Source: Pigmentiphaga kullae (GTDB lineage: Bacteria > Pseudomonadota > Gammaproteobacteria > Burkholderiales > Burkholderiaceae_B). From it: a DNA stretch of 64,000 bases. Positions within the stretch are counted from its first letter, which is position 1. Each line of letters begins with the position of its first letter. Where the stretch lies: NCBI RefSeq assembly GCF_004216695.1, contig NZ_SGXC01000001.1:1798001-1862000 (forward strand), written 5' to 3'. This document shows positions 10,890-24,403 of the stretch, one piece after another. The position numbers and the translations under genes are program-made. The notes beneath the pieces were generated by a model, which saw only the letters and a list, made by a program, of their open reading frames with translations, was not told the DNA's origin and ran no database searches.

Positions 10890-12140
10890 ATGAAACTGCG
10901 CTTTTTCTCGTTTGGTCCGGGACGTCGGTTCGCGCTGGCCACCGTGGCTTCCGCTTGCTTCCTCGCGTTCCCGGCCGCCGTGCCTTCCTCCGCCCTGGCC
11001 GCCGCCGCGCCTCCCGCCACCACTTCCGCCGCGACGCCGACCGCACCGCCGATGTCGACCGTCGGCCTGCTGTCCTCCGTGCCGGCGCCGGCGATCGCGG
11101 CGCGCGCCTGGGTGACCATCGACGTCACCAGCGACCAGATCCTGGCCGAGGAACGTTCGGGTGAACGCATCGAGCCCGCCTCGCTCACCAAGGTCATGTC
11201 GGCTTACCTGGTGTTCAACGCGCTCAAGGAAAAACGCCTGACGCTGGCCCAGACGGTCAACGTGTCGCAGAAGGCGTGGCGCACCGGCGGCTCGCGCATG
11301 TTCATCGAGCCGCGCAAGCCCGTCACGGTCGAAGAACTGATACGCGGCATGATCACGCAGTCCGGCAACGACGCCACCGTGGCGCTGGCCGAGGCCGTGG
11401 CCGGCAGCGAGGACGCGTTCGTCGCGCTGATGAACCAGGAAGCCACGCGCCTGGGCCTGAAGGAGACGCACTTCACCAACTCCACGGGCCTGCCCGATCC
11501 GCAGCACGTGACCACCGTGCGCGACCTGGCCCTGCTGGCCAAGCGGCTGATCCAGGACCATCCCGACTACTACGGCTATTACAAGGAACGCCAGTTCACC
11601 TACAACAAGATCACCCAGCCCAATCGCAACCGGCTGCTGTGGGTCGATCCGTCGGTGGACGGCATGAAGACCGGCCATACGGACGCCGCGGGCTATTGCC
11701 TGATCGCCTCGGCGATGCGGGGCGACCGCCGCGTGCTGACGGTGCTGGTGGGCGCAGCGAGCGAGAACGCCCGCGCGCAGGAAAGCCTGAAACTGCTGAA
11801 CTGGGGCTTCCAGAACTTCGATACCGTCAAGGTCTACGACGCCAAACAGGCGGTGGTGGAACCCAAGGTCTGGAAGGGCAGCGTGGGCAAGGCCAAGCTG
11901 GGTTCGCCGTCGGCGATCTGGGTGACCGTGCCGCGCGGCCAGGCCGGCAACGTCAAGTCCACCATCGAACGCACCGATCCGCTGGTCGCGCCGCTGCAGG
12001 CCGGCCAGCAGGTGGGCACGGTCAAGCTGACCCTGAACGACAAGCCGGTGCGCGAAGTGCCGCTGACCGTGCTCGAACCGGTGGACGTGGCCGGCATCTT
12101 CGGCCGGGCGTTCGACGCGGTCCGCCTCTGGTTCAATTGA
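10890..12140 (+). CDS. dacC: D-alanyl-D-alanine carboxypeptidase (PBP5/6 family)
   Basis: The protein has 416 residues: a signal peptide (about 1-33), an S11 peptidase domain and a C-terminal PBP5 beta domain. The penicillin-binding motifs are visible: SLTK (PASLTKVMSAYL, near residue 97), SGN (TQSGNDATVALAEAV) and KTG (GMKTGHTDAAG). It trims the terminal D-Ala from peptidoglycan pentapeptides in the periplasm, and the end of the protein probably anchors it to the inner membrane. The ATG at 10890 begins the signal peptide; the longer frame upstream lacks one. Confidence 0.95.
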   Translation: MKLRFFSFGPGRRFALATVASACFLAFPAAVPSSALAAAAPPATTSAATPTAPPMSTVGLLSSVPAPAIAARAWVTIDVTSDQILAEERSGERIEPASLTKVMSAYLVFNALKEKRLTLAQTVNVSQKAWRTGGSRMFIEPRKPVTVEELIRGMITQSGNDATVALAEAVAGSEDAFVALMNQEATRLGLKETHFTNSTGLPDPQHVTTVRDLALLAKRLIQDHPDYYGYYKERQFTYNKITQPNRNRLLWVDPSVDGMKTGHTDAAGYCLIASAMRGDRRVLTVLVGAASENARAQESLKLLNWGFQNFDTVKVYDAKQAVVEPKVWKGSVGKAKLGSPSAIWVTVPRGQAGNVKSTIERTDPLVAPLQAGQQVGTVKLTLNDKPVREVPLTVLEPVDVAGIFGRAFDAVRLWFN

Positions 12141-12144
12141 AGCA

Positions 12145-12221
12145 CCCCCCTACGCGCTGATGCGCGCCCCCCAGGGGGCGATGCGGGTGGACCGGCAAAG
12201 CCGGATCCACCGCATCCTGGG
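12145..12221 (+). repeat. REP-like dispersed element, copy B
   Basis: It begins within 5 bp of the dacC stop codon, in the same orientation as copy A. The GCCCCCCAGGGGGC dyad and CCGGCAAAGCCGG dyad are both present. In this place it may act as a 3' mRNA structure or terminator for dacC. Confidence 0.85.
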
Positions 12222-12296
12222 TAACACCGGGGTGATGGCGGGTGTAGGATGGTTGTCGTGCGGTATGTTTGTCCGGGCTCTCATCGTGGAGTGGAA

Positions 12297-13160
12297 ATGA
12301 TTCCTGGTATCGAGGGTGATCCTCGGGTCTATCTGAACGGCGAGTTCACGCCGTTGTCGCAGGCCAAGATATCCGTGTTGGACCGGGGGTTCATCTTCGG
12401 CGACGGGATCTACGAGGTCGTGCCCGTGTACGGGCGCAAGCCGTTCCGGATGGCGCAGCACCTGGCCCGGCTGGAACGCAGCCTGGCGGCGATCCGGATT
12501 CCGAATCCGCATACGGTCCAGCAGTGGCAGGACCTGGTGGGCAAGCTGATCGAGACCTCGGATGCGCAGGACCAGATCGTCTACCTGCAGCTGACCCGGG
12601 GCGTGGCCAAGCGCGACCATGCCTTCCCGGCGCAGGTCGTGCCCACGGTGTTCGGCATGAGCAGTCCCTTCGCGCGGCCCTCGGCGCAGGCGCGCCGGGA
12701 CGGCGTGAAGACGGTCAGCATGCCGGACGAGCGCTGGCTGCATTGCGAGATCAAGTCCACTTCGCTGCTGGGCAACGTGCTGGCGCGGCAGTTCGCGGCT
12801 GATCGCGATGTGCCCGAGGTGGTGATGTTCCGCGACGGCTATCTTTCCGAGGGTTCGTCCAGCAACGTCTGGGTCGTCAAGGAGGGCCGGCTGCTGGCGC
12901 CCGTGAAGGACAACCTCATCCTGGAAGGCATCCGCTACGGCTTCATCGAGGACATGGCCGCGGCCCGCGGCATCGCGCTCGAGATGCGGCCGATTTCCCG
13001 GGCCGAGGTCGACGCGGCCGACGAGCTGATGCTGTCGTCGGCCACCAAGGAAATCCTGCCCGTCGTGTCCCTGGACGGCAAGCCCGTCGGCGATGGCCGG
13101 CCCGGGCCGGTCTATGCGCGGCTGCGCGAGGGATACGACGAGGCGATCGCAAGGCTTTGA
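12297..13160 (+). CDS. D-amino acid aminotransferase, fold-type IV PLP enzyme
   Basis: The protein has 287 residues. Family motifs are VLDRGFIFGDGIYE near residue 28, YLQLTRGVAKRDHAFP, the PLP lysine in EIKSTSLLGNVLARQ near residue 146, EGSSSNVWVV, and LSSATKEILPV. It transfers amino groups between D-amino acids and 2-oxo acids, possibly supplying D-glutamate or D-alanine. Branched-chain transaminase and aminodeoxychorismate lyase share the fold. Residues such as RGVAKRDHAFP favour the D-amino acid enzyme. It starts an apparent operon with ybeD, lipB and lipA. Confidence 0.87.
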   Translation: MIPGIEGDPRVYLNGEFTPLSQAKISVLDRGFIFGDGIYEVVPVYGRKPFRMAQHLARLERSLAAIRIPNPHTVQQWQDLVGKLIETSDAQDQIVYLQLTRGVAKRDHAFPAQVVPTVFGMSSPFARPSAQARRDGVKTVSMPDERWLHCEIKSTSLLGNVLARQFAADRDVPEVVMFRDGYLSEGSSSNVWVVKEGRLLAPVKDNLILEGIRYGFIEDMAAARGIALEMRPISRAEVDAADELMLSSATKEILPVVSLDGKPVGDGRPGPVYARLREGYDEAIARL

Positions 13161-13166
13161 TCCATC

Positions 13167-13445
13167 ATGGCAGACTTACCTGAAATTCCCGATTCGCTGA
13201 TCGAATATCCGTCGGACTTCCCGATCAAGGTCATGGGTGCCCATCACCCCGATTTCGTCGCGGTGCTGACCGAGGTCGTGCTGCGCCACGATCCCGGGTT
13301 CGACCCCGGATCGGTGGAAAAGCGGCCCAGCTCGGGCGGCAACTACGTGGGCCTGACCTTCATCGTGCGCGCCACCTCGCGCGAGCAGTTGGACGCCCTG
13401 TACCGCGAGCTGACCTCGCACCCCATGGTCAAGTACGTGCTGTAA
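13167..13445 (+). CDS. ybeD: DUF493 / YbeD family protein
   Basis: The protein has 92 residues of the small ACT-like YbeD fold, with IEYPSDFPIKVMGA near the start, then SSGGNYVGLTFIVRATSREQLDALYREL. YbeD genes commonly stand just before lipB, as here (6-bp gap). The biochemical role is unknown. Confidence 0.9.
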   Translation: MADLPEIPDSLIEYPSDFPIKVMGAHHPDFVAVLTEVVLRHDPGFDPGSVEKRPSSGGNYVGLTFIVRATSREQLDALYRELTSHPMVKYVL

Positions 13446-15254: not shown

Positions 15255-15276
15255 CGCCCATCGCTCGCGCGGGCGC

Positions 15277-15305
15277 TTGACACCCCTGGCCCGGCTCTTT
15301 ACCAT
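15277..15305 (+). promoter_or_regulatory. Sigma-70 promoter of the IclR-linked catabolic cluster
   Basis: A perfect -35 box TTGACA (15277-15282) is followed after exactly 17 bp by TACCAT (15300-15305), a four-of-six match to TATAAT. It lies just after the lipA terminator and about 160 bp before the first gene of the cluster. Confidence 0.7.
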
Positions 15306-15306
15306 G

Positions 15307-15338
15307 TTTCTTACAAAGAAATTATTTTCTTTTTAGAA
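15307..15338 (+). promoter_or_regulatory. Dyad next to the promoter, candidate IclR operator
   Basis: A perfect inverted repeat TTTCTT-ACA-AAGAAA (15307-15321) begins two bases after the -10 box. A second, imperfect dyad TTCT-TTTT-AGAA follows at 15327-15338. A protein bound here would cover the transcription start. The IclR regulator encoded fifth in this cluster is the natural candidate, but this is inference. Confidence 0.5.
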
Positions 15339-15462
15339 GAACAAAAGAGAGGCAAAAGCGGGCCCAGGGTCCGCCATCTCCCCGCCTTTCCCTCGTTCCC
15401 GGAATCTCGCGTCCATGCCGTGCAGGCAGGAGGACGCTCACGCTCGAACAAGGAGACGCATC

Positions 15463-16455
15463 ATGTCATTCCCGCGGCTTTTCCCCGCCACCGCCTGGCG
15501 CGGCGGCGCCATTTTCCTGGCCTGCATGGCCGCCTGTGGCGTGTCGGTGGCCGAGACCTATCCCGCCAAGCCCATCCGGCTCATCGTGCCGTTCGCGCCG
15601 GGCGGCGCGGTCGACATCGTCGGCCGCCTGATGGCGCAGTCGCTGAACGAAAGCCTGGGCCAGGCCGTGATCGTGGAAAACCGCCCCGGCGCGGGCGGCC
15701 TGCTGGTCATGGAGGAAGTGGCGAAAGCCGCTCCCGATGGCTATACCCTCGCGGTCGGCGCCGCCGGACCGCTCACGGTCAGCCCGGCCTTGTTCAAGGA
15801 GCGCAGGTTCGATCCGCTGGAGCGGCTCGACCCGGTGATCTGGTACGCCAGCACGCCGGGCATCCTGGTGGTGAATCCCGCGCTCAAGGCCGACAACGTG
15901 GCCGAGCTGATCGCCTTGTCCAAGTCCAGCCCGCGCCCGCTGGCCATGGGGTCGGCCGGCAGCGGCAGCATCAATCACCTGATGGGGGAGTACTTCCAGC
16001 AGGTGGCCGGCGTCAGCTGGATGCACGTGCCCTATAAGGGCAGTTCGCCCGCGCTGACCGATCTGGTCGGCGGCAACGTTCAAGTGATGATGGACATCGT
16101 GCCGACCGCCACGCCGCTGGTGAAGTCGGGCAAGCTGCGCGCCCTGGCGGTGACCACGCCCAAGCGCTCCAACATGCTGCCGTCGGTGCCCACCGTGGCC
16201 GAGCTGGGCTATCCCGGCTTCGACGCCAGCTCCTGGCTTTCATTGAACGCTCCGCACGGCACGCCGGCGGCCATCATCCAGAAGCTGAATCGCGCTCTGA
16301 ACGAAGGGTTGGCCAAGGAGGACGTCCGTCGCCGCATCACCGACATCGGCGCCGAGCCGGAAGGGGGCGCGCCGGACCGCGTCACGGCGCGCCTGAAGCT
16401 GGACATCCCGCGCTGGAGCAAGTTGCTGGAAACCGCGGGCGTCACGGTGCAATGA
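15463..16455 (+). CDS. Bug-family (TctC-type) periplasmic binding protein
   Basis: The protein has 330 residues: a signal peptide (about 1-27), then the Bug pattern YPAKPIRLIVPFAPGG, an LPSVPTVAELGYPGF segment, and HVPYKGSSPALTDLVGGNV. Bug proteins bind carboxylates, amino acids or similar small anions in the periplasm and sometimes pass them to a TctAB transporter; none is encoded here. It is the first gene of a probable operon with a cupin, aldolase, hydrolase, IclR regulator and dehydrogenase. The start has an AAGGAGAC Shine-Dalgarno sequence 6-7 bases upstream. It may bind the substrate of this pathway. Confidence 0.88.
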   Translation: MSFPRLFPATAWRGGAIFLACMAACGVSVAETYPAKPIRLIVPFAPGGAVDIVGRLMAQSLNESLGQAVIVENRPGAGGLLVMEEVAKAAPDGYTLAVGAAGPLTVSPALFKERRFDPLERLDPVIWYASTPGILVVNPALKADNVAELIALSKSSPRPLAMGSAGSGSINHLMGEYFQQVAGVSWMHVPYKGSSPALTDLVGGNVQVMMDIVPTATPLVKSGKLRALAVTTPKRSNMLPSVPTVAELGYPGFDASSWLSLNAPHGTPAAIIQKLNRALNEGLAKEDVRRRITDIGAEPEGGAPDRVTARLKLDIPRWSKLLETAGVTVQ

Positions 16456-16475
16456 AGCGAACTCAAGGAGGCGGT

Positions 16476-16844
16476 ATGGCATTGGCGAATCTGCATAACT
16501 GGAACGATCTGTCCAGGGAGACCGTTCGCAAGGGCGTGGAGCGGGTCGGTTTTCGCGGCGACGACGTGATGTGCGTCATGAACTGGCTCACGCCGGGCAT
16601 GGATACCAATCCGCACAGCCACACGTTCGAACAACTGGTGATCATCGTGCAGGGGCGGGTGCGCTTCCATCTGGGCGACGAAGTGGTCGAGGGCGGCCCG
16701 GGCAGCATGATTCGCATTCCGCCGCACGTGGTGCACTACGCCGAGCCCGTGGGCGACGAGGTGGTCCTGAACCTGGATGTGTTCGCGCCGCTGCGGGAAG
16801 ACTACAAGCATCTGGTCGAGTACCAGCGCGCCGAGTTCGAATGA
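16476..16844 (+). CDS. Small cupin-domain protein
   Basis: The protein has 122 residues and a single cupin barrel. The metal-site pattern is DTNPHSHTFEQLVII (His, His, Glu) near residue 47 and IRIPPHVVHYAEPVGDEV (His) near residue 85. Such proteins may be isomerases, dioxygenases or ligand-binding regulators; the activity here is unknown. An AAGGAGG sequence sets the start at 16476 rather than the upstream ATG. Its stop overlaps the aldolase start, so translation is probably coupled. Confidence 0.82.
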   Translation: MALANLHNWNDLSRETVRKGVERVGFRGDDVMCVMNWLTPGMDTNPHSHTFEQLVIIVQGRVRFHLGDEVVEGGPGSMIRIPPHVVHYAEPVGDEVVLNLDVFAPLREDYKHLVEYQRAEFE

Positions 16845-17641
16845 CCATGGCCGCCGCGAACCAGGCGTTCCGCACCCGCCTGCGCGAGCGCGCGCCGCTG
16901 GGCGGGACGTTCGTCAAGACGCCCGCGTACCAGCACGTCGAGATCGCCGGCGGCGCCGGCCTGGACTTCGTCGTGCTCGATGCCGAGCATGCCGTGTTCG
17001 ATCCGGCCCAGCTGGACCAGTGTGTGCTGGCCGCCCGTGCCGCAAGCACGGCGGCGGTCGTGCGCCTGCCCGATCCCGGCGCCTCCAGCGTGCTGCGCGT
17101 GCTGGACATGGGAGCCGCGGGCGTGCTGGTGCCGCACGTGGTCGACGCCGCGTGCGCCCGCGAGATCGTCGCGCGGACGCGTTACGCCAGCGGTGTCCGC
17201 GGCTACAGCAATTCGCCGCGCTCGGGCGGATACGGCGCGCTGCCCATGGCCCGCCACATGCGGGAGGCCGATGCCGGCGCCAGCGTGCTGTGCCAGATCG
17301 AGGACCGCGCGGGCGTGGACAACATCGACGAGATCGCCGCCGTGCCCGGGGTCGATTGCCTGTTCATCGGACGCGCGGACCTGGCCGTTTCTTATGGCGT
17401 GGCGGAGCTCGATCACCCGCTGGTCGCGCAGGCGGTCGACAAGGTGATCCAGGCCGGAGCGGCCGCCGGGGTCGCCGTGGGCATTTTCCTGCCCGACGCC
17501 GGCGCGCTGGCCGCCTACGCCGCCCGCGGCGTCAGTCTGTTCGTGATCGGCTCCGACCAGAGCTGGCTGCGTACCGCCGCGCTGGGCCTGAACGGGCATA
17601 TGACCGCGGCCTTTCTTCAAACATCGGAGTGCAAACCATGA
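16841..17641 (+). CDS. HpcH/HpaI-family aldolase
   Basis: The protein has 266 residues in a TIM barrel. Family motifs are VVLDAEHAVFDPAQ near residue 45, VRLPDPGASSVLRVLDMGA, GVLVPHVVDA, CQIEDRAGVDNIDEI with the metal-binding Glu, and LFIGRADLAVSYG with the metal-binding Asp. The family cleaves 4-hydroxy-2-oxo acids to pyruvate plus an aldehyde. It could act on the last ring-opened or chain intermediate of this pathway. It overlaps both the cupin stop and the next gene's start, placing it firmly in one operon. Confidence 0.87.
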   Translation: MTMAAANQAFRTRLRERAPLGGTFVKTPAYQHVEIAGGAGLDFVVLDAEHAVFDPAQLDQCVLAARAASTAAVVRLPDPGASSVLRVLDMGAAGVLVPHVVDAACAREIVARTRYASGVRGYSNSPRSGGYGALPMARHMREADAGASVLCQIEDRAGVDNIDEIAAVPGVDCLFIGRADLAVSYGVAELDHPLVAQAVDKVIQAGAAAGVAVGIFLPDAGALAAYAARGVSLFVIGSDQSWLRTAALGLNGHMTAAFLQTSECKP

Positions 17642-18570
17642 ATACTTCCGCCGTCGCAACACCGGCCGCCGAGCTGGATCCCCGCGTCGAAAACCTCGTG
17701 CGGGGCGCCATCGACCTGCATTGCCACAGCGGCCCGTCGGTGATGGCTCGCTACCTGGACCACCTGGAGGCCATGCGGGAAGCTTCCGAGGCCGGTCTGA
17801 AGGCCGTGCTGCTGAAAGACCACTATTATTCGGCCACCCCGGTCACCTATCTGCTGAACAAGCACTTCAGCAACCTGGGCGTGCTCATGCTGTCGGGCGT
17901 GCCGCTGAACAACGCGGTGGGCGGCCTGAACGTGCACGCGGTCGAGCACGGCATCAAGCTGGGCGCGCGCCTGGTGTGGATGCCGACGTTCTCGTCGGCC
18001 AACCACATCGACCATCACAAGCAGGATCACAAGTTCACCGAGAAATTCCCGCAGACCAAGAAGAAGATGATCGATCCGGTGCCGCTCACGGTGCTGGATG
18101 CCAACGGCAAGCTCAAGGAAGAGGTCAAGGACATCCTCGACCTGATCGCCGAGGCCGACGTGGTGCTGTCGGCGGGGCACCTGCATATCTCGGAGATCTG
18201 GCCGCTGTTCGACGAGGCCCGCAAGCGGGGCGTCAAGCGCCTGCTGGTCAATCATCCCACCTACGTGGTGGATGCCACGCTCGACGACATGAAGGTGCTG
18301 GCGCGCGATGGCGTCTACATGGAGCATTCGATGTGCATGTGGGTGCCCGGCTCCAAGTTCAAGTTCTACGAGCCGGAGTTCCTGCGCCAGATCATCGAGG
18401 CCGGCACGGTGGACCGGACCATACTCGGGTCGGATCTGGGCCAGCAGGGCAATCCGCGGATCGTGGACGGTTTCCGCCACGTGATCCGCACCTGCCTGGA
18501 CCTGGGCTACGGCGAGGCGGAAGTTCGTAAAATGACTTCCACGAACGCATCCGCCCTGATGGGTATCTAA
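17638..18570 (+). CDS. DUF6282-type metal-dependent hydrolase
   Basis: The protein has 310 residues with an amidohydrolase-like pattern: IDLHCHSGPSVMARYLDH with the His-x-His metal pair near residue 24, LLKDHYYSATPVTYL, SAGHLHISE, VNHPTYVVDATLDD and LGSDLGQQGNP with a late Asp. It has no signal peptide. The family is uncharacterised and often sits in catabolic clusters with cupins or IclR regulators. A hydrolase acting on an amide, lactone or similar bond is plausible. The start overlaps the aldolase stop by four bases. Confidence 0.8.
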   Translation: MNTSAVATPAAELDPRVENLVRGAIDLHCHSGPSVMARYLDHLEAMREASEAGLKAVLLKDHYYSATPVTYLLNKHFSNLGVLMLSGVPLNNAVGGLNVHAVEHGIKLGARLVWMPTFSSANHIDHHKQDHKFTEKFPQTKKKMIDPVPLTVLDANGKLKEEVKDILDLIAEADVVLSAGHLHISEIWPLFDEARKRGVKRLLVNHPTYVVDATLDDMKVLARDGVYMEHSMCMWVPGSKFKFYEPEFLRQIIEAGTVDRTILGSDLGQQGNPRIVDGFRHVIRTCLDLGYGEAEVRKMTSTNASALMGI

Positions 18571-18578
18571 GGAGAGGT

Positions 18579-19445
18579 ATGAGGACCAGCGCCGCAAAGA
18601 AGACGGAACCGGAAGCACCCGCGACCTCGGCCAAGGGGGCGGGACCCGCGCTGCTGGAGTCGGTGGCCATCGTCTTCACGATACTCGATCAACTGGCCGC
18701 GGCGCGACGTCCGCTGGGCGTGACCGAGCTGGCGCTGGCCATCGACGAGCCCAAGCCGCGCGTCTACCGGCACCTGGCTTCCCTGCGGCAGCTCGGCGTC
18801 GTCGAACAGGACCTGGTCAGCGAGAAATACCGGCTGGGCGCCAAGCTGGTGTCCTACGGAACGGCCGCGGGCGAGCAGTTCGACCTGCGGCTGATCGCCG
18901 ATCCCTACCTGACGCAGCTGCGCGACCAGACCAGCCAGACGGCGCTGCTGTCCGCGGTCACCGAGGATTCGGCGCTGGTGATCTCGTCGGTGGAGTCGAC
19001 CAACCAGGTCTGCATCACCGTCAAGCCCGGCAACCGCGTGCCGCACCATTGCTCGGCCCAGGGTCGGATCGTGCTGGCCTACTGCGACCCCGCCACGCAG
19101 CGCAAGATCCTCCGGCGCGAGCTGCAAGCCTATACCGACCGCTCCATGGTCGAACCGGCGCGCATCCTGGAACGGCTGGCGCTGATACGCGAGCGGCTGT
19201 TCGAAGAAGCCAACGGCGAAGTGCTCGAAGGCATCAACGTGCTGGCCGCGCCCATTTTCCGCGGCGCCGAGAAGGGCGACGAGCTGATGGGCATCATAGG
19301 CGTGATCGGCGCGAGCAAGGACGTGCCTTCGCCGCCGCCCCCCGGAATGGTCAAGCTGGTGCAGCAGGCCGCGGCGGCGCTGACCGAGCGCCTGAACGGG
19401 GTTTCCTACGAGCGCCTGGGGTTGGCCCGCGCCGGGAAGAACTGA
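18579..19445 (+). CDS. IclR-family transcriptional regulator
   Basis: The protein has 288 residues. An N-terminal winged helix (about 25-85, with PLGVTELALAIDEPKPRVYRHL) is followed by the IclR ligand domain (about 100-275). It is encoded in line with the catabolic genes, 8 bp after the DUF6282 gene, and so is likely to control its own operon in response to a pathway metabolite. The dyad at 15307-15338, next to the cluster promoter, is the obvious candidate target. Confidence 0.92.
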   Translation: MRTSAAKKTEPEAPATSAKGAGPALLESVAIVFTILDQLAAARRPLGVTELALAIDEPKPRVYRHLASLRQLGVVEQDLVSEKYRLGAKLVSYGTAAGEQFDLRLIADPYLTQLRDQTSQTALLSAVTEDSALVISSVESTNQVCITVKPGNRVPHHCSAQGRIVLAYCDPATQRKILRRELQAYTDRSMVEPARILERLALIRERLFEEANGEVLEGINVLAAPIFRGAEKGDELMGIIGVIGASKDVPSPPPPGMVKLVQQAAAALTERLNGVSYERLGLARAGKN

Positions 19446-19485
19446 AGCGATCCGGGCGTGCCCGTCGCAATCCGAAGAGAATTCC

Positions 19486-20538
19486 ATGTCCAGACTCGAA
19501 GTGGCAGTGGGGGCACTGCCCTTGAAGAATCCCGTGATCTGCGGATCGGGGGAACACACCATGACGGCCGACGGTATCCGCGCCGCCCTGCGGGCGGGCG
19601 TGGGGGCCGTGGTCGCCAAGTCCGTCAATGAATCGGCCGCGGCCAAGCAGCAGTTGGACCGCACCGACTACGCGCTGCTGGGCAGCGACTGGCGCCGGCT
19701 GCCTTGGAACTTCGCGCCGCCGGCGGACGCGCAGCTGCTGTGCCGCTCGGGCCTGATCCAACTGGAGTTCGAGCCCTGGATGGAGCAACTGGTCGCGCTG
19801 GATCGCGAAGCCGCGGCGCAGGGCGCCTACGTCATCCCCAGCCTGATCCTGAGCGATCTCGACCAGTGCGCGCGCTATGCGCGGGCCATCGAGCAGATGG
19901 GCCTGCGGGTACTGGAAGTGAACATCGGCGCGCCCCATGGCGAGGAAGCGGCGCGCGGCGCCATCGTGCTGGAACGCAGCAGCGAACGCATCACGGCCAT
20001 CGTCCGCACGCTGCGTGCCGCGACCCGGCTGCCGCTGTGGATCAAGCTGACCGGGCAGAGCGAGGACGTCGCGGCCCTGGCCGACGCGGCCAGACAGGCG
20101 GGCGCGGACGCGGTCGTGATGATGGGACGCTTCATGGGCTTCCTGCCCGACCTGGACACCGAAGCGCCCGTGCTGGGCACTTCCGCCGCGCTGGGCGGCG
20201 GCTGGGCGCTGCCGCTGACGGCGCGCTGGCTGGCGCTGAGCCGCAGGCGGCTCGGGCCGGACTATCCGCTGCTGGCCACCAACGGCGCGCGCAGCGGCCA
20301 TGACGTGGCCCGGTTCCTGCTGGCCGGCGCCTGTGCCACCGAGATGACCTCGGCCGTGTTCACCGGCGGCTACGAGGTGCTGGCGCGCAGCGTGCGCGAA
20401 CTGGACGAGTACGTGCAGAGCCGGGGCAAGCGCGCCGCCGACCTGCTGGGCGTGGCGGCCGACCGGCTGGCGTCCTACGCCGACCAGGACTCGCGCCCCG
20501 GGTACTGGCAGACCTTCGTGCCGCCCGCGGCGGCCTGA
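19486..20538 (+). CDS. Dihydroorotate/dihydropyrimidine dehydrogenase-like flavoprotein
   Basis: The protein has 350 residues with an FMN-binding barrel of the PyrD/PreA type. LPLKNPVICGSGEHTMTADG near the N-terminus, VGAVVAKSVN, a VNIGAPHGEE segment, LWIKLTGQSEDV and LLATNGARSGHDVARFLLAGA match family positions. It lacks the iron-sulfur region of PreA and the membrane helix of PyrD, and probably reduces or oxidises a small ring or unsaturated acid. The substrate is unknown. It is the last gene of the IclR-linked cluster, followed by a hairpin. Confidence 0.8.
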   Translation: MSRLEVAVGALPLKNPVICGSGEHTMTADGIRAALRAGVGAVVAKSVNESAAAKQQLDRTDYALLGSDWRRLPWNFAPPADAQLLCRSGLIQLEFEPWMEQLVALDREAAAQGAYVIPSLILSDLDQCARYARAIEQMGLRVLEVNIGAPHGEEAARGAIVLERSSERITAIVRTLRAATRLPLWIKLTGQSEDVAALADAARQAGADAVVMMGRFMGFLPDLDTEAPVLGTSAALGGGWALPLTARWLALSRRRLGPDYPLLATNGARSGHDVARFLLAGACATEMTSAVFTGGYEVLARSVRELDEYVQSRGKRAADLLGVAADRLASYADQDSRPGYWQTFVPPAAA

Positions 20539-21948: not shown

Positions 21949-22926
21949 TTACTCCATCCTGATCCCGCGCGACTCGATCAGCTCGCGCCCGCTCTTGATC
22001 TCCGATGCAAGGTAGTCGCGCAGCTCGGCGGGCGATCCGCCTATGGGTTCGGCGCCGATCGAGGCCAGCGTGCCCTGCACCTTGGGTGTCTTGAGCGCGT
22101 CGCGCATGGCCCGGTTCAGCTTGTCGATGACGGCGGGCGGCGTGCCGGCCGGGGCGAAGGCAGCGAACCACGGCGTCAGTTCATAGCCGGGCAGGCCGGC
22201 CTCGGCCACCGTCGGCACGTTGGGCAGCGCGGCCGACCGCTTCCTGGTGGTGACCGCGATGGGGACGAGCTTGCCGGCGTCGATGTGCGGCTTGGACGAG
22301 GTGATGCTGTCGAACATGTAGTCGACCTGCCCGCCCAGCATGTCGGCGATCGCCGGGCCGCTGCCCTTGTAGGGCACGTGCAGCATCTGCACGCCGGCCA
22401 TCTTGGCGAACAGCTCGCCCGCCAGGTGGATGGAGGTGCCCACGCCGGCCGAGGCATAGGTGTACTTGCCGGGATGCGCCTTGGCCAGCGCGATGACTTC
22501 CGGCACGGTCCTGGCCTGGATGCGCTGCGGATTGACCACCAGCACGTTGGGAACGACGGCCAGCAGCGAGATGGGCGTGAAGTCCTTGACCGGATCGTAG
22601 GCCATGTCCGGATACAGCGCGGGATTCACCGCCATGCCGTTGGCCACGATCATGATGGTGTAGCCGTCCGGCCTGGCGCGCGCCACCGCGGTGGCGCCGA
22701 TGTTGCCGCCAGCGCCCGCGCGGTTCTCGATCACGAAGGACTGGCCCAGGCTCTTGCCCATGGCTTCGCCCAGCGTGCGGGCGATGTTGTCCATGGCGCC
22801 GCCCGGCGGGAAGGGAACGATCCAGCGAACGGGACGGTCCGGATAATTGTCGCCTGCGGCCGCGGCGAGCGGCAGGGCAGACAGGGCGGCAAGGGCCAGG
22901 GCGGTCGTCTTGTGCAAGGGTTTCAT
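21949..22926 (-). CDS. Bug-family binding protein in the cat operon
   Basis: The protein has 325 residues: a signal peptide (about 1-24), YPDRPVRWIVPFPPGGAMDN, an INVENRAGAGGN-type segment and HVPYKGSGPAIADMLGGQVD. It lies 48 bp after catC on the same strand, so it is probably co-transcribed with catB and catC. That position suggests a ligand such as muconate, benzoate or a lactone, but no ligand residue proves it. No TctA or TctB partner is nearby. Confidence 0.88.
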   Translation of the reverse strand: MKPLHKTTALALAALSALPLAAAAGDNYPDRPVRWIVPFPPGGAMDNIARTLGEAMGKSLGQSFVIENRAGAGGNIGATAVARARPDGYTIMIVANGMAVNPALYPDMAYDPVKDFTPISLLAVVPNVLVVNPQRIQARTVPEVIALAKAHPGKYTYASAGVGTSIHLAGELFAKMAGVQMLHVPYKGSGPAIADMLGGQVDYMFDSITSSKPHIDAGKLVPIAVTTRKRSAALPNVPTVAEAGLPGYELTPWFAAFAPAGTPPAVIDKLNRAMRDALKTPKVQGTLASIGAEPIGGSPAELRDYLASEIKSGRELIESRGIRME

Positions 22927-22974
22927 CGTTGTCTCCGATATGAATAGTAGATACGGATGGGCCGCCGGGGGCGT

Positions 22975-23253
22975 TCAGTGGATGGACGAGGGGTGGCGGG
23001 CCAGCGGCGTGACGTGGATCTGCATGTACGGAAACAGCGGCAGCGACGACAGCAGGGTATGCAGCTCGTCGTTGTCGGCCACGTCGAAGATGCTGTAGTT
23101 GGCGTATTCGCCCACCACGCGGTAGAGCTGCGGCCATTTGCCCTGCCGTTGCAGGCCCTGGGAATAGGCCTTCTCGGTGGCCTTCAGCGCATCGGCTTCT
23201 TCCTTGGGCATGGACGGCGGCAGGCGGACATCCATGCGGACGAGGAACAACAT
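22975..23253 (-). CDS. catC: Muconolactone delta-isomerase
   Basis: The protein has 92 residues matching the whole family length. LFLVRMDVRLPPSMP opens it, with a conserved QGKWPQLYRVVGEYANYSIFD-type centre (residues about 36-56) and LPLFPYMQIHVTPLARHPSS near the end. It converts muconolactone to 3-oxoadipate enol-lactone in the catechol branch of the beta-ketoadipate pathway. It follows catB by 25 bp. Confidence 0.93.
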   Translation of the reverse strand: MLFLVRMDVRLPPSMPKEEADALKATEKAYSQGLQRQGKWPQLYRVVGEYANYSIFDVADNDELHTLLSSLPLFPYMQIHVTPLARHPSSIH

Positions 23254-23278
23254 GTGATTCTCCTGGTGATGCGGCGCT

Positions 23279-24403
23279 TCAGCGATCGCGGCGATAGCGC
23301 CTGAGTTTTTCTTCGTCCAGCGCCAATCCCAGACCTGGTCCGGTGGGCAGCGCCATCGAAAATTCCTGATAGGCGGGGCGCTGCCGGACGACGTCGTCGA
23401 CCAGCAGCAAGGGGCCGAACAGTTCGGTGCCCCATTCCAGCCGGGGCAGCGTGGCGAAGGCGTGCGCGGCAGCCACAGTGCCTATGCTGCCTTCCAGCAT
23501 GGTGCCGCCGTACAGCGCCATGCCCGCGGCGTCGCCGACCGCGGCGGTGCGCAGCACTTCGTAGAGGCCGCCCGACTTGGAAATCTTCAAGGCCAGGACG
23601 TCGGCCGCGCCCTGGCGGGCGAGATCCATGGCGTCTTCGGGGCTGTGCACGGCCTCGTCGGCCATGATGGGCACGACGAAGCGCGCCGCCAGCCTGGCCA
23701 TGCCGGCGCGATGGGCGCGTGGCAGCGGCTGTTCGATCAGGTCGACCCCGGCCGCTTCCAGCCGGGCAATGCCGGTGGCCGCCTGCGATTCGCTCCAGGC
23801 CTGGTTCACGTCCACGGTCACGCGCGCCCGCGCGCCCAGCGCCTCCTTGATGGCGCAGACGTGGGCCACGTCCTCGGCCACGGAGCGGCGGCCGATCTTC
23901 AGCTTGAAGGTGTCGTGCCGCCGCGCGGCCAGCAGGGACTCGGCCTCTTCGATGTCGCGCCGGGTATCGCCGCTGGCCAGCGTCCAGAGCACGGGCACGG
24001 CATCGCGCACGGCGCCGCCCAGCAACGTCGAGACCGGCACGCCCAGGCGCTTGCCCTGCGCATCGAGCAGCGCCGTCTCCAGCGCCGACTTGGCGAAAGT
24101 GTTGCCGCGCGCCACCCGGTTCATGCGCTGCGCCGCGGCCAGCACGTTCGAGGCATCCAGCCCCAGCAGCGCCGGGGCCAGGTAGGTGTCGATGGCGAGC
24201 TTGATGCCCTCGGGGCTTTCCTCGCCATAGCTCAGCCCACCGATGGTGGTGGCTTCTCCCAGCCCTTCCATGCCGTCGGAACACCGCAGGCGCACGATGA
24301 CGAGCGTCTGCACGTTCATGACCGTCATCGCCAGTTGGTGGGCACGGATGGTGGGCAGGTCGACCAGGATGGCCTCGATCGACTCGATGCAGGGGGAAAC
24401 CAT
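23279..24403 (-). CDS. catB: Muconate cycloisomerase
   Basis: The protein has 374 residues of the enolase superfamily. Visible active-site elements are the KLKIGRR lysine pair near residue 165, the metal ligands in VTVDVNQAW, LIEQPLP and MADEAV, and the LKISKSGG lysine. It turns cis,cis-muconate into muconolactone. The divergent catR gene and the catC gene after it make up a standard cat module. The catechol 1,2-dioxygenase gene catA is absent from the window. Confidence 0.93.
   Translation of the reverse strand: MVSPCIESIEAILVDLPTIRAHQLAMTVMNVQTLVIVRLRCSDGMEGLGEATTIGGLSYGEESPEGIKLAIDTYLAPALLGLDASNVLAAAQRMNRVARGNTFAKSALETALLDAQGKRLGVPVSTLLGGAVRDAVPVLWTLASGDTRRDIEEAESLLAARRHDTFKLKIGRRSVAEDVAHVCAIKEALGARARVTVDVNQAWSESQAATGIARLEAAGVDLIEQPLPRAHRAGMARLAARFVVPIMADEAVHSPEDAMDLARQGAADVLALKISKSGGLYEVLRTAAVGDAAGMALYGGTMLEGSIGTVAAAHAFATLPRLEWGTELFGPLLLVDDVVRQRPAYQEFSMALPTGPGLGLALDEEKLRRYRRDR

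Follow-up and report, generated by a model that had tools for sequence, protein, structure and literature searches.

The described systems closest to the locus studied here are reductive pyrimidine degradation by PreTA/dihydropyrimidine dehydrogenase (DPD) and dihydropyrimidinase, the LigI-LigJ-LigK route that handles 2-pyrone-4,6-dicarboxylate in protocatechuate 4,5-cleavage, the KdgF step of pectin and alginate uronate catabolism – KdgF opens oxygen rings – and the homoprotocatechuate (hpa) pathway. The locus, an operon of six genes, lies in a stretch of 64,000 nucleotides of Pigmentiphaga kullae (positions 1,798,001 to 1,862,000 of contig NZ_SGXC01000001.1), which we refer to, at its full length, as the window; overall, it is a real, conserved and operator-linked catabolic cassette. 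Like the pyrimidine pathway, it combines a DPD-fold flavoprotein with an amidohydrolase-fold hydrolase in one operon, but the acid–base Cys and the iron–sulfur domain are absent, and a pyruvate-forming aldolase and a KdgF-like cupin are present. With LigI-LigJ-LigK it would share ring hydrolysis followed by pyruvate-forming aldol cleavage, and LigI itself has the amidohydrolase fold; however, the sequence of the cassette's hydrolase, a member of DUF6282, does not identify it as LigI, the aldolase belongs to the HpaI and not the RraA type, and the flavoprotein and cupin are additional. The cupin carries the metal-site pattern of KdgF and its catalytic D-x-F-x3-R group, although the widely shared neighbours of the cassette include no lyase, uronate reductase or KDG kinase. 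Finally, the HpaI-type aldolase and, in relatives, a galactonate/HpaX-type MFS carrier and an SSADH/HpaE-like aldehyde dehydrogenase recall the hpa pathway, whereas HpaD, HpaF, HpaG and HpaH were not seen in the shared set and the scores stay below the HpaI and HpaE equivalog cut-offs. Because the DPD Cys and the iron–sulfur domain are lacking, the GarL and HpaI cut-offs are not reached and the kinship of DUF6282 with LigI is ambiguous, we file the cassette under none of pyrimidine breakdown, LigI-LigJ-LigK or uronate linearisation. A preliminary description of this DNA knew of no described pathway with this set of genes, and the available portions of open-licence papers yielded none either.

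The six plus-strand genes and the families to which they had been assigned are borne out by the positions of the open reading frames and by profile matches (15463–20538; Table 1). The successive junctions are a 20 bp gap, two 4 bp overlaps, an 8 bp gap and 40 bp before the flavoprotein gene; of the earlier statement that four genes are joined by overlaps or gaps of under 25 bp, the four junctions are real, but they link five genes. The GC content of the operon (0.683) is that of the window (0.685), and the stretch with the promoter is AT-rich (0.560 at 15270–15460). An Rfam scan of the whole window gave no match at the gathering cut-offs.

Table 1. Genes of the operon and elements upstream of it, in window coordinates.
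Feature	Position	Strand	Evidence
Sigma-70-like promoter	15277-15305	+	-35 TTGACA at 15277-15282, 17-base spacer, -10 TACCAT at 15300-15305
Operator, proposed IclR site	15307-15332	+	dyad TTTCTTACAAAGAAA at 15307-15321, third half-site up to 15332
Bug/TctC periplasmic binding protein	15463-16455	+	PF03401 E 1.4e-71, TctC profile over cut-off
Single-domain cupin with KdgF metal site and D-x-F-x3-R group	16476-16844	+	profile, alignment, invariant residues
HpcH/HpaI class II aldolase	16841-17641	+	PF03328 over cut-off
DUF6282 protein, amidohydrolase-superfamily fold, invariant His/Asp/Lys site	17638-18570	+	
IclR-family regulator	18579-19445	+	HTH_IclR and IclR_C above cut-off
DHOD/DPD-fold (DHO_dh-fold) flavoprotein, A149 at the place of Cys671	19486-20538	+	PF01180 over cut-off

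Conservation was followed in 90 loci, all chosen by DUF6282: a scan of genome contigs gave 92 relatives, the best 80 of which were used, and ten plasmid loci were added (of all 90, 11 measure less than 12 kb). Presence was scored by tblastn at E 1e-8; the gene calls of the clustering script contain shadow frames in GC-rich loci. The aldolase is present in 82 loci, the single cupin in 54, the flavoprotein in 51, IclR in 49 and c9, a protein family described below, in 31; Bug is present in 23 loci, 8 of them with at least 45% identity. At most 3 kb from the DUF6282 gene, and at least 30% identical, lie the aldolase in 78 of the 90 loci, the single cupin in 53, the flavoprotein in 46 and c9 in 22. 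The preliminary description had proposed looking for co-occurrence of DUF6282, HpaI aldolase, cupin and the flavoprotein dehydrogenase in Burkholderiales; all four are present in 44/90 loci, and the reach goes past that order into three proteobacterial classes (Beta-, Gamma- and Alphaproteobacteria), which rules out a set restricted to one strain. Among the 44 are loci from Pigmentiphaga, Caballeronia, Paraburkholderia, Pseudomonas, Stenotrophomonas, Luteimonas, Polaromonas, Ottowia, Woeseiaceae, Kordiimonadaceae, Agrobacterium and Gemmobacter, and three further loci have the flavoprotein with c9 in place of the single cupin. The nearest named loci, with DUF6282 proteins 95–99% identical, come from an Alcaligenaceae bacterium, a Burkholderiales metagenome-assembled genome (MAG) and two Pigmentiphaga.

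The reverse search points the same way for the flavoprotein: as query against plasmids it found nine records, and a DUF6282 match is directly adjacent in 9/9 (the DUF6282 positions used for adjacency are those of 30 of 47 plasmid records). The flavoprotein is rare: 369 genomes of the class gave no close copy outside the organism's own, and the one match in another genome has 31% identity (E 3e-21). Of 399 genomes of the order, 2 (own included) encode a DUF6282 protein at more than 70% identity and 16 have some match at E 0.001. Over the 44 loci, the distances between the four proteins, taken pairwise, correlate at r 0.78–0.87, as against 0.33 for the top of 500 shuffles, a correlation to which shared species history contributes. 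These comparisons indicate that the genes form a conserved, co-inherited unit.

The perfect −35 box and correct spacing reported for the promoter are both present. By itself, the promoter is weak evidence, no better than chance, because the −10 is TACCAT and shuffles already give 0.5 promoter-like sites as compared to the 1 found. The dyad, said to lie right behind the −10, starts one base past it, and at up to 2 arm mismatches TTTCTT-ACA-AAGAAA has its sole match in the 64 kb window here. A pattern of the 12 arm positions, defined by the window alone, was run against the 300 bp preceding the cupin gene in 37 loci, namely those with a cupin of at least 60% identity to that of the window, after exclusion of the near-identical relatives L010–L012. 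At up to 1 mismatch, the operator is found upstream of the cupin in 10/37 loci as compared to 1 site in the remaining 637,752 bp; at up to 2 mismatches it is found in 20/37 loci (26 sites in 11,100 bp), versus 20 sites elsewhere. A Pseudomonas locus, L034, whose IclR protein is 56% identical to that of the window, has both arms without any mismatch. A looser pattern, TTTC-N7-GAAA, which was picked after the sites had been seen, has 19 sites in 12,000 bp upstream as against 7 in 693,642 bp (19/40 loci, near relatives included), and a third half-site of the type GAAAY-nnn-RTTCTTT extends many of the operator sites.

At up to 2 mismatches the operator is also associated with the type of regulator: it is present in 17 of the 22 loci with an IclR protein at least 54% identical and in 3 of the 15 others (p 0.0009). 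In the organism's own genome the 26-base pattern has a single exact copy, in this operon, and a search for further copies there gave one match at 3 mismatches versus three control matches, that is, chance. The dyad is a conserved operator, found in other genera in front of the same genes, and the IclR protein is the candidate binder of the full element. As to linkage, the IclR control announced in the preliminary description agrees with an IclR gene in many of the loci and with the conserved operator that the dyad forms.

In the cupin, H47, H49, E52, Q53, H87, D101, F103 and R107 are invariant in 29 sequences, and we take the residues of its metal site to be the metal ligands. Both this site and the Asp-x-Phe-x3-Arg group are in register with the KdgF structure 5fq0; a catalytic role has been described for Asp102, Phe104 and Arg108 of KdgF (PMC11381880). 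Against structures, the best profile match is BacB (E 3e-16); a role as acireductone dioxygenase (ARD) was set aside, ARD 4qgl reaching only E 5e-4 as compared to 4e-12 for KdgF. With the KdgF catalytic residues in place, the cupin speaks for an oxygen ring and not for a cyclic amide. The c9 family (300 amino acids; for example L087 8042–8950, and 30 other loci) has no match in Pfam or NCBIfam, and we call it cupin-like on the basis of the motifs HHHDDFEQ and D-x-F-x-P-x-R, found by eye and by regular expression. It seems to take the place of the single cupin in its loci; matches of the two were checked and do not overlap.

DUF6282, listed in Pfam as a family of unknown function, has the fold of the amidohydrolase superfamily: it is a TIM-barrel with an HxH...K/H...H...D site, whose residues are invariant in 43 sequences. 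As a single protein it has no match by sequence in the PDB, the top rows of its profile against the PDB are designed repeat proteins matched by repetition, with no useful relative, and no literature on it was found among open-licence papers. The same genome encodes a paralog (L112 9141–10106, near 655 kb of the contig) and, near 264 kb, a third DUF6282 protein. Open frames around the paralog resemble, when judged by eye, Bug genes, SDRs, a further amidohydrolase and aldehyde dehydrogenase, and they include a LigB-type dioxygenase. Class I fumarase genes recur near DUF6282 (L015 14196–18751, L110 9716–13655); L015 also has a gene resembling ketopantoate reductase and a second amidohydrolase gene, and L110 has one for a flavin reductase. 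On a plasmid of Thermus oshimai (L006 5716–11996), a DUF6282 protein of 35% identity is encoded with catechol 2,3-dioxygenase and CHA aldolase, both over their own cut-offs, a PIG-L protein and a DUF1932 dehydrogenase; this DUF6282 might substitute as a pyrone or lactone hydrolase of a meta-cleavage pathway. The Thermus and LigB neighbourhoods fit a putative ring-hydrolysing or ring-hydrating role of DUF6282 in carboxylate pathways.

Residues E49, H50, R75 and E154 of the aldolase are invariant and D180 is nearly so (28 sequences); all are in register with GarL, and presumably they have the catalytic roles of their counterparts. Its best NCBIfam match is GarL (E 3e-45), at 154.7 bits against a cut-off of 406.75, and the HpaI equivalog gives 146.6 bits against 368.8. 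The roles of hydrolase and aldolase proposed earlier are consistent with these folds and invariant residues. The predicted flavoprotein, of 350 amino acids, matches only the DHO_dh, Dus and FMN_dh profiles and lacks the C-terminal 4Fe-4S ferredoxin domain of DPD/PreA; its model (pLDDT 90.2) retrieves DPD in Foldseek at E 3.9e-23. At the column of pig DPD Cys671, which we located through the C671A and C671S chains in the alignment, the family has Ala in 25 and Thr in 4 of 29 sequences, with no Cys or Ser. The earlier argument from PreA-like flavoproteins, that they reduce ring double bonds, is not supported as it stands for a family with Ala or Thr in 29/29 and no ferredoxin domain: since both the acid–base Cys and the iron–sulfur domain are absent, such ring reduction cannot be assumed.

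Relatives of the cassette differ in what surrounds it. Several Pseudomonas and Paraburkholderia loci have a divergent arm with IclR, a galactonate/HpaX-type MFS carrier (its matches are below cut-offs), a GMC oxidoreductase and an aldehyde dehydrogenase; GMC is present in 17/90 loci and in 15/44 of those with all four enzymes, and MFS in 25/90. In Gemmobacter a divergent IclR gene is followed, in this order, by a TRAP carrier, the flavoprotein, DUF6282, aldolase, cupin, an SSADH-like dehydrogenase and GMC. The smallest version, of Paracoccus versutus, likewise has a divergent IclR gene and a TRAP carrier before the flavoprotein, DUF6282 and the aldolase, and is completed by a c9 protein that shares 47% identity with its L087 counterpart. 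Organic acids are the typical cargo of TRAP and Bug/TctC systems; the small cassettes therefore probably start from an acid, which GMC and the aldehyde dehydrogenase would form from an alcohol. The best GMC and aldehyde dehydrogenase matches in the organism's own genome (51% and 56% identity) lie outside the window, the latter in a crowded family, and neither is a clear ortholog. TctA has seven matches in this genome, none of them within the window.

Among the neighbours, metY directly follows the flavoprotein gene in the window and, by gene calls, in L011; in L010 and L012 LigB and LigA genes (protocatechuate 4,5-dioxygenase type; 11927–13186, minus strand) and then another Bug gene stand between the flavoprotein gene and metY. 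Beside the operon, a catechol ortho-cleavage block (21949–24403, minus strand) comprises a Bug gene, muconolactone isomerase and muconate cycloisomerase. In one MAG (L042 3054–5686), genes near the cassette encode the 3-oxo-isoapionate kinase OiaK (over cut-off) and a RuBisCO-like protein that scores best, though below cut-off, against the OiaX model.

The explanation that we prefer, and to which we give an even chance of being right, is a catabolic operon under IclR control, devoted to an organic acid that either is a carboxylated oxygen heterocycle of the pyranone, dihydropyran or lactone type from the start or is converted into one. The Bug protein would bind the acid and hand it to a TctAB-type carrier encoded elsewhere; the flavoprotein would make a redox or isomerising change on the ring, which DUF6282 would hydrolyse; the KdgF-like cupin would finish ring opening and enol–keto tautomerisation to a 4-hydroxy-2-oxo acid, which the HpaI-type aldolase would split into pyruvate and an aldehyde; and IclR would act at the operator. 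The acid carriers that adjoin the cassette in relatives, TRAP and Bug, count for this explanation. Several observations weigh against it. The flavoprotein is missing from 39/90 loci. Nor is this type of cupin confined to the cassette: in the plasmid search with the cupin as query 4/9 matches adjoin a DUF6282 match among the matches listed, and this reverse search gives weak support. In 17/37 loci the best operator match upstream of the cupin has at least 3 mismatches, and at 1 mismatch the association with IclR is not significant (8/22 versus 2/15, p 0.15; the two in the latter group, L027 and L033, have no IclR gene in the stretch examined). The closest folds to DUF6282 are dipeptidases and dihydroorotases, so the substrate may yet be an amide, and the enzyme roles are predictions from folds and residues.

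One specific form of the oxygen-ring explanation, a long shot in our estimate and a matter of chemical inference alone, is a route for comenic-type 4-pyranone acids, starting from kojic acid in the extended version. GMC and the aldehyde dehydrogenase would oxidise the hydroxymethyl group of kojic acid to give comenic acid, the flavoprotein without the DPD Cys would reduce the pyranone at its enoate bond, DUF6282 together with the KdgF-like cupin would open the dihydropyranone, the last carbon would be lost as formate to leave 4-hydroxy-2-oxoglutarate, and the HpaI-type aldolase would release pyruvate and glyoxylate; the version in the window, with a Bug protein and no GMC nearby, would import the acid itself. 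If true, each conserved enzyme has a step. The available portions of open-licence papers held nothing relevant on the degradation of kojic or comenic acid, nor on pyrone acids.

Of the other explanations, the one that survives best, while still unlikely, is an aromatic lower pathway, in which LigAB or HpaBC-LigAB encoded elsewhere yield a muconate-type product that recyclises, and DUF6282, cupin and aldolase act like LigI, a tautomerase and LigK. LigB and LigA do adjoin the cassette in L010, L012 and L052 (with HpaB in L052), the Thermus DUF6282 sits with CHA aldolase, PIG-L protein and catechol 2,3-dioxygenase, and the DUF6282 paralog is near a LigB-type gene; however, LigB is found in only 3/90 loci and HpaB in 1/90, and the best LigB matches of the organism's own genome, 49–51% identical to the L012 protein, are all outside the window. 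Likewise improbable, and placed after it, is a reductive route for a nitrogen ring, in which the flavoprotein reduces a ring C=C, DUF6282 is a cyclic amidase (dihydropyrimidinase- or enamidase-like) and the aldolase cleaves the open chain. The folds nearest to DUF6282 suit an amide, but the DPD Cys671 position holds neither Cys nor Ser in any of the 29 sequences, the iron–sulfur domain is missing, no ureido-acid amidohydrolase is in the list of conserved neighbours and the cupin is of the KdgF type. The original interpretation is partly supported: a conserved, co-inherited unit is upheld, PreA-like reduction is not supported as stated, and the KdgF residues of the cupin, which the preliminary description did not anticipate, favour an oxygen ring over a cyclic amide. 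A sugar-acid route, in which the cupin linearises an unsaturated uronate-like acid, the aldolase cleaves a 2-oxo-3-deoxy acid and DUF6282 is a sugar lactonase, we consider very doubtful: GarL as best aldolase match (far under cut-off), the KdgF signature and the MFS carrier of relatives speak for it, but the widely shared neighbours include no sugar-acid dehydratase, kinase or lyase, and we know of no place in such routes for a DPD-fold flavoprotein.

The cassette offers a frame for three things: DUF6282, a DPD-fold flavoprotein that is naturally without the acid–base Cys, and a cupin of the KdgF type with no evident uronate pathway around it. All three belong to one cassette common to environmental Beta-, Gamma- and Alphaproteobacteria. 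The common operator and the adjoining acid carriers make the substrate findable by induction, and this could indicate the roles of several enzyme families.

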